Shown: positions 4,523 through 50,895 of the stretch, one piece after another | How the letters are laid out: each line of letters begins with the position of its first letter | Numbering within the stretch: position 1 is the stretch's first letter | From: Prochlorococcus sp. AG-321-E21 | GTDB lineage: Bacteria > Cyanobacteriota > Cyanobacteriia > PCC-6307 > Cyanobiaceae | Assembly (NCBI GenBank): GCA_003283415.1 | Contig: QBXH01000001.1 | Location: forward strand, 1 to 64,000 | Direction of reading: 5' to 3' | Length of the DNA: 64,000 bases | Translations under genes and position numbers: made by a program | The notes under the pieces: model-generated | Told to the model about the DNA's origin: nothing | The model's input: only the letters and a program-made list of their open reading frames with translations | The model's database searches: none

Positions 4523-5227
4523 TTAACTTATTAAAGAGCCTATAGACTCTCCAGCAACAGCCTTGGAGATATTCCCTTTTTTGAAAATATCAAAAACCAT
4601 TATAGGAATATTATTATCTTTGCATAGAGCAATGGCGGTACTGTCCATTACAGCGATTTCATCACTAAGAACTTGCTGATAAGTGAGAGAGGAGTACTTT
4701 TTTGCTTCTTTAAATTTATTTGGATCACGATCATAAACTCCATCAACTTTTGTTGCCTTCATAACGACTTCAGCATTTATTTCGGCTGCTCTTAAAGCAG
4801 CAGTAGTATCTGTAGTGAAAAATGGATTACCACAACCACCTCCAAAAACCACTACCCTTCCTTTCTCTAAATGCCTCATTGCTCTTCTTCTAATATACGG
4901 TTCGGCAATTTCTTGCATCTCGATTGCAGTTTGCACTCTGGTTTCAACCCCAACTCTTTCTAATCCATCTTGTAAGGAAATAGCATTCATCACTGTTGCT
5001 AACATTCCGACATAATCAGCGGTAGCTCTATCCATGCCATCAGCGGAGCCTTTAAGTCCTCTAAATATGTTGCCACCACCAACAACTATTGCAAGTTGAA
5101 CCTTATTTGAGATTACCTTCTCAACATCTTCAGCAATCGATTGAACTATCGCGGGATCTATTCCATAAGGTTTATCTCCCATTAGTGCTTCTCCACTAAG
5201 CTTTAAAAGTACTCTTTTGTAAGTCAT
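4523..5227 (-). CDS. pyrH: Uridylate kinase
   Basis: '[13 protein letters not shown]', '[10 protein letters not shown]', '[13 protein letters not shown]' motifs; adjacent to frr. Confidence 0.97.
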
Positions 5228-5353
5228 TCAATACTCATACTTTAATGACCTTAGCAAGTAAATATACAGAATTTCTTTTTTATGATGATATTGCTTGCTT
5301 CTTTAAACATTTCTCAATCGAATAACATGAAACAAAAAAGATTTTCTAAAATT

Positions 5354-6049
5354 CTAAAACTCAACACATTCTTGAGCTTTTATGCCTTGATCTTTAAAAG
5401 GATGCTTAATTAATTTCATCTCTGTAACTAGATCAGCTTGATTAATGATTGATTCGGAAGCTCCTCTACCAGTAAAAACTATGTGATTTTTTCTATTATT
5501 TAGTTTTTTAATATACGTAATTATTTCTTCTGATGAAAGATATCCAAGCTTAGTTGCGATATTAATTTCATCAAGGATTATAAGTTTGTATGATTCATCT
5601 TCGATGAATGTTTTAGCTTTTTGCCAAGCTTCTTTAACTAATTCTTCATCCCTAACTCTATCTTGCGTTTCCCAAGTAAAGCCTTCTCCTAATGCATGCC
5701 ATGAAATATTTGAAGATAAATTTTTAAGAGCTTTTTCTTCGCCTGTAGTCCAACCACCTTTAATAAATTGAATAATTGCGACTTTATGCCCATGACCAAT
5801 AGTTCTTAACGCCATTCCTAAAGAAGCAGTTGTTTTACCTTTACCATTTCCAGTAAAAACAATTAATAACCCTTTTTTTGTTTTCCTTATTTTTAATCTC
5901 TTTGATTGAACATCTTTTCTTTTTTGCATTCTTTTTTTATATAAACTCTCATCTGTTTCAGGAGATAACTTGCCTCCTATCCCAAGTTCTTTAGCTTGAG
6001 TATCAAGACTAGTAATTTTTTTTAAGGAGGGTTGTTTCTCATCATGCAT
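5354..6049 (-). CDS. cobO: Cob(I)yrinic acid a,c-diamide adenosyltransferase
   Basis: 'VFTGNGKGKTTASLGMALR' P-loop and 'LIILDEIN' typical of CobO/BtuR. Confidence 0.92.
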   Translation of the reverse strand: MHDEKQPSLKKITSLDTQAKELGIGGKLSPETDESLYKKRMQKRKDVQSKRLKIRKTKKGLLIVFTGNGKGKTTASLGMALRTIGHGHKVAIIQFIKGGWTTGEEKALKNLSSNISWHALGEGFTWETQDRVRDEELVKEAWQKAKTFIEDESYKLIILDEINIATKLGYLSSEEIITYIKKLNNRKNHIVFTGRGASESIINQADLVTEMKLIKHPFKDQGIKAQECVEF

Positions 6050-49117: not shown

Positions 49118-49263
49118 AAAATAAGAAAATGCAATTCACATGAAAATATAATATGAATTTTCTTCTAAATGATTAATTAACTGATTGAAAGATGTGCTCC
49201 CATTCCAATATTCCGAGAAAATGTAAATATTCGCATTTTTCTTGGTTAAAAGTGATACTTTCG

Positions 49264-49333
49264 GCTACGATAAAAAAGCGCAAATTCCATTTGGGAGTGT
49301 GGCGGAATTGGTAGACGCGCCGGACTTAAAATC
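49264..49333 (+). repeat. Duplicated tRNA-Leu(UAA) promoter region plus 5' half of tRNA (att-like remnant)
   Basis: 49293-49333 is identical over 41 nt to 50732-50772; upstream gctac(g/a)ataaaaaagcgc also shared. Confidence 0.92.
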
Positions 49334-49529
49334 TTCAGTAGATTCTAGTACTTAGTGGACAGGGTTTAGTTTAAAAGCTAGACCCTTACTTAATTATCTA
49401 ACTGTACGAACATGTACAGAAATCCACTAAATTATCTGCCGAGCAAGCTAACCTAAAAACAGATTGAAAATCATCGAGGGTTAGAGCCTAAATGTATATG
49501 TAGTTCACTAGGTCGATATCTCGAACCTG
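49328..49529 (+). ncRNA. Candidate structured RNA fused to the tRNA-Leu 5' half
   Basis: Nested stems: TTAGTGGA/TCCACTAA, AGGGTTTAG/CTAGACCCT, CTGTAC/GTACAG, CTAACC/GGTTAG, AGGTCGA/TCG(A)ACCT. Confidence 0.5.
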
Positions 49530-49667
49530 AAAATGACTTAATTAAAACCTCTTAATATTTCTTTCAAAATTTATTCAATTAATATTTTTTATTTATAGAA
49601 ATGAAAAGGAAAATGTCGCGAAACTAAAATTAATGTATCGTAGAATACATAATTTCTTAAATAGTTC

Positions 49668-50474
49668 ATGAAAAGAAAATTTCTTATTAACCTCTTTTTA
49701 TTCCCAATATCACTTCTATCAGTTGTTTTTTTACAATTAAATATAGCTAACTTAATTTCACCGTCTGCTGTCCATGCAACTAACTGGAATGGATACGATG
49801 TTTCAAAGAAAAGTGGTCTGCAAAATCTAAAAAATGGAAATTATCAAAAAGCAGTAGAATTTTTTACCAAGGCTATCAATATTTATAATCGTGATTCTGA
49901 TAGTTATTACTTTAGAGGCGAAGCTAACCAAGGATTAGGGAATCATAACGAAGCCATAGCTGATTTTAAAAAGTCGATGACTATGGACGGGATAGGGTAT
50001 AAGGCAAACACGAACTATATGATTGGTTATTCCTACATTCAGTTAGAAGATTTTGATAATGCATTAATACATTTGAATAAAGCAATAAGCATTAAATCTG
50101 ATAAAGGAGGCTATTACTACAGCAGAGGTTATGTCTATTTAAATCAAGAAAAATGGGATGAAGCGCTTAAAGACTATGAAGTGGCAAAGGTTAAATATTT
50201 AAAGAAGAAAGAAAAGTTAGATGAATATTTTTATAGTGAGATTGGATATGTTCACTATAATCTTGGATCATTAAAACTAGCTATTGATTATTATGACAAG
50301 GCTATTGAAATTAATCCAAAGGAAGGCTTCTTCTATTCAGACAAAGGTGACGCTCTTTATGACCTTGGAAAGGAAGATGATGCATGTGCAAACTATATTA
50401 AGTCTTCCGAATTGGGTTATGAGGAAATTAAAGACTACCTAAATTCAACAGATGGTGATTGGTGTAAAAAATAA
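49668..50474 (+). CDS. Secreted/periplasmic TPR-repeat protein
   Basis: N-terminal signal-like segment; repeated TPR units ('YQKAVEFFTKAINIYNRDSDSYYFRGEANQGLGNHNEAIADF'). Confidence 0.88.
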   Translation: MKRKFLINLFLFPISLLSVVFLQLNIANLISPSAVHATNWNGYDVSKKSGLQNLKNGNYQKAVEFFTKAINIYNRDSDSYYFRGEANQGLGNHNEAIADFKKSMTMDGIGYKANTNYMIGYSYIQLEDFDNALIHLNKAISIKSDKGGYYYSRGYVYLNQEKWDEALKDYEVAKVKYLKKKEKLDEYFYSEIGYVHYNLGSLKLAIDYYDKAIEINPKEGFFYSDKGDALYDLGKEDDACANYIKSSELGYEEIKDYLNSTDGDWCKK

Positions 50475-50501: not shown

Positions 50502-50636
50502 CCCTTTGGGGTAAATCTCTCATCATATGGGACACTCTCAACACAGGTAACAGAAAAGTACCTACACGCAGCAGACAAAAAACTTGCTGCTCAAGTGAAC
50601 TCTACAGAATGGTCTGCGGATATTGCTATTGCATGA
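50502..50636 (+). pseudogene. C-terminal remnant of a tyrosine recombinase/integrase, frameshifted
   Basis: 50538-50636 reads STQVTEKYLHAADKKLAAQVNSTEWSADIAIA*; the shifted frame just upstream reads 'HHMGHS', i.e. broken MGHSSTQVTEKYLH. Confidence 0.75.
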
Positions 50637-50731
50637 TCCAAATGATCCGTAGATTTCAATATCAACACTTTTTACAAGAATTTTGAAGAGATTAAGTCGA
50701 CCAGCTACAATAAAAAAGCGCGAGATCCCTT

Positions 50732-50817
50732 GGGAGTGTGGCGGAATTGGTAGACGCGCCGGACTTAAAATCCGTCGAGCGCTTTAGCTCGTGGGGGTTC
50801 AAGTCCCCCCACTCCCA
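50732..50817 (+). tRNA. tRNA-Leu(UAA), intronless
   Basis: GGGAGTG/CACTCCC acceptor stem, TTAA anticodon loop, variable arm, T-arm GGGGGTTCAAGTCCCCC; CCA not encoded. Confidence 0.96.
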
Positions 50818-50895
50818 TTCTTAAACTATTTATTTTTAGTTCTTACGATAGCTTTTAATAGTTGTTATCTTAAAACTAAGAAATCAGAAATTTAG

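Follow-up and report, generated by a model that had tools for sequence, protein, structure and literature searches.

The segment 49291-50772 of the 64,000-nt window (the whole stretch of Prochlorococcus sp. AG-321-E21 DNA that was analysed, the first 64,000 positions of contig QBXH01000001.1) is very probably an integrated cassette derived from the attP region of a T7-like cyanophage of the P-SSP7 type. It would belong to a family of non-autonomous cassettes that are integrated and excised by an integrase supplied by phages. The left end of this segment had drawn attention in the original prediction as a chimeric multi-stem RNA, and to judge from its sequence it is the attL junction of the phage-derived insert. 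The chimeric junction itself was correctly recognised, as was the native tRNA promoter region retained upstream of it: the 5' half of a tRNA-Leu gene runs into other sequence, and 49293-49333 agrees at every position with the 5' half in the intact tRNA-Leu(UAA) gene at 50731-50818. The identity is longer than originally described, covering 43 bp (49291-49333). The window contains the genes in the order dnaA ... pyrC, tRNA-Leu, a small membrane-protein gene, which we take to be ndhL, and trpA. The features of the insert and its borders are the following.

49218-49290, + strand: native host tRNA-Leu promoter region, now 5' of the half copy, aligned with the tRNA-Leu(UAA) promoter of insert-free relatives
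49291-49333, + strand: attL core, 43 bp identical to 50730-50772, 5' half of tRNA-Leu(UAA); T7-like cyanophages have this half as their attP/attB motif (PMC8776855)
49334-49444, + strand: left (attP-side) phage arm, non-coding, differing from phage contig L094 at 5 of 111 nt; the same region lies 3' of attP in phage contigs of class A, the class of the window
49361-49386, + strand: hairpin 1, conserved and terminator-like, 3' of attP; its P-SSP2/P-SSP3-type counterpart is followed by T5-T6
49402-49419, + strand: hairpin 2, conserved, located within the RNA polymerase leader of the phage
49445-49511, + strand: phage RNA polymerase gene, decayed 5' end only, with the start ATG changed to AAG at 49445 and codon 4 from GAA to TAA at 49454
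49668-50474, + strand: cargo gene for a 268-aa TPR protein (Pfam TPR), probably secreted
50519-50729, + strand: right phage arm, matching L094, with the phage-borne tRNA promoter TTGAAG-17-TACAAT (50683-50711, a promoter-like match)
50520-50636, + strand: what is left of the phage tyrosine integrase gene, its 3' end with one frameshift, TQVTEKYLHAADKKLAAQVNSTEWSADIAIA* against the L094 integrase (Pfam Phage_integrase)
50730-50772, + strand: attR core, which now supplies the 5' half of a functional tRNA, with 43-bp identity to the attL core
50731-50818, + strand: intact tRNA-Leu(UAA) (Rfam), in which the element-borne promoter and 5' half are joined to the original host 3' half

The IMG/VR phage contig L094 matches the insert at either end, in the correct order and orientation. 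On the left the match extends over 49261-49511 at 89%, including about 110 nt after the half tRNA, and on the right 50521-50740 matches the sequence before attP at 95% over 216 nt. The 5' half is therefore repeated at both ends and the arms correspond to both sides of the phage attP. The integrase remnant was missed by tblastn with the distant P-SSP3 integrase and was revealed by the close phage L094. The exact tRNA-Leu 5' half was found in 50 viral stretches, 38 of which lack the remainder of the tRNA; adding P-SSP2 and P-SSP3 brings the attP-type arms to 40. Where the phage layout was checked it consisted of the integrase gene, a promoter-like sequence, the 5' half, one or more hairpins and the RNA polymerase gene. 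Moreover, T7-like cyanophages have been described whose 39-bp attP motifs correspond to the first half of tRNA-Leu and which integrate at this site (PMC8776855). The match to L094 on both sides, the gene remnants and the reported site together lead to the identification of the feature as an attL junction. An intact T7-like prophage was considered and rejected; only the integrase tail and the broken polymerase start remain, and as the insert contains no functional integrase or other phage genes it is a phage-derived scar or cassette.

Such an arrangement very probably arose by recombination between attP and the tRNA-Leu(UAA) gene, carried out by the tyrosine integrase of a phage. At the left the host promoter and 5' half stayed in place, followed by the post-attP phage sequence with its two hairpins and polymerase start, and at the right the promoter and 5' half of the element rebuilt a working tRNA. 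Once integrated, the phage-borne promoter would maintain expression of the tRNA; beforehand it would read towards the RNA polymerase gene. A promoter-like TATAAT/TACAAT is also seen just upstream of the half tRNA in the phage contigs L051-L102.

The original prediction saw in this region a functional hybrid RNA of 200-240 nt, composed of the tRNA-Leu 5' half and a multi-stem domain and transcribed from the tRNA promoter. The five stems on which it was based are all present, the promoter region is retained, and the region as a whole folds better than chance, since 49334-49540 gave z = -2.85 against dinucleotide shuffles (1 of 200 as good) and 49293-49545 gave z = -2.39 (4 of 200). Hairpin 1 also shows covariation. 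We nevertheless consider such an RNA very improbable, as the sequence is accounted for by the phage arms at an integration scar, the 3' stems are missing from the phage source, and the 5'-half copies decay in relatives. The Rfam scan that had been suggested as a check returned, at gathering score, only the intact tRNA, so that membership of the region in a known Rfam family was rejected. That no open reading frame explains the region is true of the window, but not of its phage source, in which 49445-49511 corresponds to the start, broken in the window, of the RNA polymerase gene. Compensatory changes in homologs were found for the hairpin at 49361-49386. The stem CTAACCT/GGGTTAG (49448-49454/49478-49484) relies on window-specific substitutions at 49454, 49479, 49480 and 49483. 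The stem at 49510-49528 is located at or past the end of the phage homology, and that formed by 49352-49359 and 49423-49430 is partially conserved. The 3' stems are chance pairings within a polymerase start that has decayed. A phage att scar can evidently mimic a chimeric non-coding RNA.

Over 35 nt, copies of the 5' half from 33 genomes differ at 0 to 9 positions or are further broken by indels, whereas the intact tRNA copies are unchanged over the same 35 nt in 35 of 35 cases. This difference points to neutral decay and not to a conserved hybrid gene. In addition, some left copies have a disrupted promoter.

Hairpin 1 is present after attP in each of the three phage classes examined. In a gap-free alignment of 24 distinct versions of it 96.8% of the cells pair, every slid register scores worse, and swapping the hairpin arms between sequences (chimera test) lowers stability. 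Two-sided changes numbered 27 against 9.4 in shuffles, with 0 of 500 reaching 27, a result that is supportive and not unbiased because the versions were chosen by us for equal length and hairpin position. The gap-free alignment and the chimera and permutation tests replaced RNAalifold on MAFFT alignments (the 5' and 3' arms of classes A and B shift by one base). The hairpin is followed by T5-T6 in P-SSP2-type phages, as in a textbook terminator, and only by TTACTTAATT in the window; the T-tract there is weak, and a terminator scan of the window did not call the hairpin. Most likely hairpin 1 would end transcripts of the tRNA-type promoter ahead of the RNA polymerase gene, both in the free phage and after integration. 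A truncated RNA of about 95-100 nt ending at hairpin 1 would be the more likely transcript of the retained promoter.

Inserts at the tRNA-Leu site were found in at least 34 of 267 Prochlorococcus genomes, a frequency that is a lower bound because most of these genomes are incomplete and many are single-cell assemblies. The count comprises 33 inspected loci with the layout described here and the tandem insert of genome G266. The integrated phage of genome G164 is kept separate, and G021 and G070 (no recognisable left copy) and G157 (another tRNA-Leu) were left out. Searches of the 267 genomes by arm type gave a class B arm in 22 and a class A arm in 13, with no overlap, and G000, G026 and G033 were added to the arm matches from the first search. 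The insert segments range from 0.25 to 2.6 kb and 31 of 35 fall within 0.5-1.6 kb. The layout consists of phage attP arms around typically one or two small genes, with no integrase, and its occurrence with different cargo in many genomes suggests that these inserts are non-autonomous cassettes. The cargo includes TPR, outer-membrane beta-barrel, PspC, DUF805, YadA-anchor-like, MORN, rhomboid and unknown proteins, with PspC found in classes A and B alike. A YadA-like anchor motif (Pfam below cut-off) was noted in the cargo of loci L042, L143, L150 and L151, possibly a surface protein family at this hotspot. Homologs of the TPR protein at E <= 1e-20 were found in 4 other genomes of 120, of which G073, G086 and G100 have the gene in a tRNA-Leu insert; with the window included, this is the location of the gene in 4 of 5 genomes. 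The named strain MIT 9302 also carries a cassette of this kind. Inserts turn over between strains: they differ or are absent between genomes whose flanks are 97% identical.

The two classes differ in their ends. In class A about 220 nt of right-side phage sequence is kept in several loci, starting at nearly the same phage position. The class B left arm ends at CTAGCG and its right arm consists of a CTAGCG site and a host-type promoter, the two ends sharing a repeat of about 115 bp with nearly the same limits in every locus first examined. This right arm is derived and absent from phages, and the kinds of cargo differ among loci. As a conserved arm site, CTAGCG with at most one mismatch was found at about -104, +20 and +112 in 16, 15 and 19 of 20 class B cassettes, respectively (control windows 1.3%), and class B phages have it near these offsets, at -101, +20 and +112. 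The putative integrase arm sites of class A showed an inverted similarity of 7.7 nt, barely above the 6.3 nt of the control, and such sites are therefore not claimed for this class. Tandem inserts occur in G073, G023 and G266, and in G177 the class B arms are joined directly, with no cargo between them. The locus L039 of genome G041 (4878-5965) is a hybrid with a class A left arm and a right end of class B type. At about 3918 in L157 (G157 contig 1) the 5' part of a different tRNA-Leu is followed by a similar hairpin (AGGGATTGGGGTAAAACTCCAGTCCCT); the use of this second gene by related elements is thus possible.

One locus, which serves as a positive control for the attL junction, extends the left arm into phage genes. 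In contig 40 of the single-cell genome G164 (L178, 4098-12759), pyrC is followed by the 5' half, a left arm of the same type, an intact RNA polymerase gene (Pfam RNA_pol, E = 1.5e-65) and, to the contig end, downstream ORFs resembling phage replication genes. This genome holds a T7-like cyanophage integrated at tRNA-Leu(UAA). Intact prophages have been stated to be absent from hundreds of single-cell genomes (PMC8776855).

It might be argued that these inserts are simply decayed prophages, that is, separate old integrations of T7-like phages whose genes were deleted, with host genes in the gap and the cassettes immobile. The broken polymerase start and integrase tail of the window, the decayed left copies and the integrated phage of G164 would all fit, and no cassettes were found in viral contigs either by the class B junction pattern or by the TPR protein. 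This explanation is rather unlikely in our opinion, since independent decay would not readily account for class A right arms with nearly the same phage start in several loci, nor for class B left arms that end alike and are paired with a hybrid right arm absent from phages while the cargo differs. The short inserts with usually one or two small cargo genes and the arm-to-arm cassette of G177 also argue against it. A family of attP cassettes is preferred.

The single conserved locus could also suggest one ancient insertion in which the cargo was swapped in place by homologous recombination and from which the insert was lost through direct repeats. Deletion between the 115-bp repeats could indeed remove the insert and restore the tRNA, and the window and its sister cassette in G100 have different arms while their interiors match. 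It is, on the other hand, unlikely, as at least two arm classes are tied to different phage groups, tandem cassettes exist and, of 21 right repeats, 16 have their nearest match among the other right repeats and not among host copies. The repeats of G040, 100% identical over 114 bp, point the same way, although gene conversion could yield such near-identity.

The comparison of arms suggests a continuing contact of the cassettes with phages. Relative to L094 the non-coding arm of the window has 5 mismatches in 111 nt (95% alike) and the polymerase remnant 15 in 67 (78%; p = 4e-4), whereas two phages compared with each other show the reverse, with 8 mismatches in the arm and 1 in the polymerase part. 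In the sister cassette (L031 of G100) the TPR cargo is 97% identical and the interior 82-100% identical to the window, but its left arm is only 60-68% identical to 49334-49453. An arm closer to the phage than the remnant is, and different from that of G100, implies a recent arm exchange, in which a phage seems to have provided the window cassette with a new arm, and this favours live phage interaction.

During infection the phage integrase may then act in trans on the cassettes; no close relative of it was found in the 267 genomes, where matches were 24-32% identical. Transfer between cells could take place by packaging, by vesicles or by ordinary recombination at the locus. We tentatively suggest, at somewhat short of even chances, that Prochlorococcus shares a pool of cassettes which phage integrase inserts and removes at the tRNA-Leu(UAA) 5' half during infection, making this half gene an acquisition site comparable to that of an integron. 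Many copies are probably fixed, as many left arms have decayed. If such a pool exists, it would give a role to the integrase of non-lysogenic T7-like cyanophages, and the cassette family may explain why lytic T7-like cyanophages without stable lysogens keep an integrase and attP (PMC8776855). It would also offer small envelope-type genes, which may benefit their carriers, a route among very abundant photosynthetic cells of the ocean.

Among known systems, integron gene cassettes are likewise small, mostly single-gene units, which a tyrosine recombinase inserts at a single site and which sometimes form arrays. The present inserts are not integron cassettes, since their recombination core is half a tRNA gene between phage arms; a non-systematic inspection also revealed neither an integron integrase gene nor an attC site. 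The tycheposons of Prochlorococcus resemble them in tRNA-gene integration by tyrosine recombinases and in their variable cargo, but tycheposons are 4-200 kbp long and carry a tyrosine recombinase (PMC10872708), whereas the insert of the window is about 1.4 kb and has no integrase. A further likeness is with cis-mobilizable elements (CIMEs) and the ssrA islands without integration modules of Dehalococcoides (PMC3146451), which are flanked by att sites, lack their own recombinase and are often found in tandem at one RNA gene; the insert studied here similarly keeps both att sites without a recombinase of its own. It differs from them in its T7-like phage arms, in the family's size of about 0.5-1.6 kb with usually one or two genes, and in that the integrase would come from a phage and not from a neighbouring island. 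The T7-like cyanophages P-SSP7 and S-TIP37 (PMC8776855) share with the cassettes the site, the phage type, the order of integrase, attP and RNA polymerase, and the arm sequences. Integration by those phages was described as transient and without stable lysogens, while in the genomes analysed here short stable inserts are common and are accompanied by the phage of G164.
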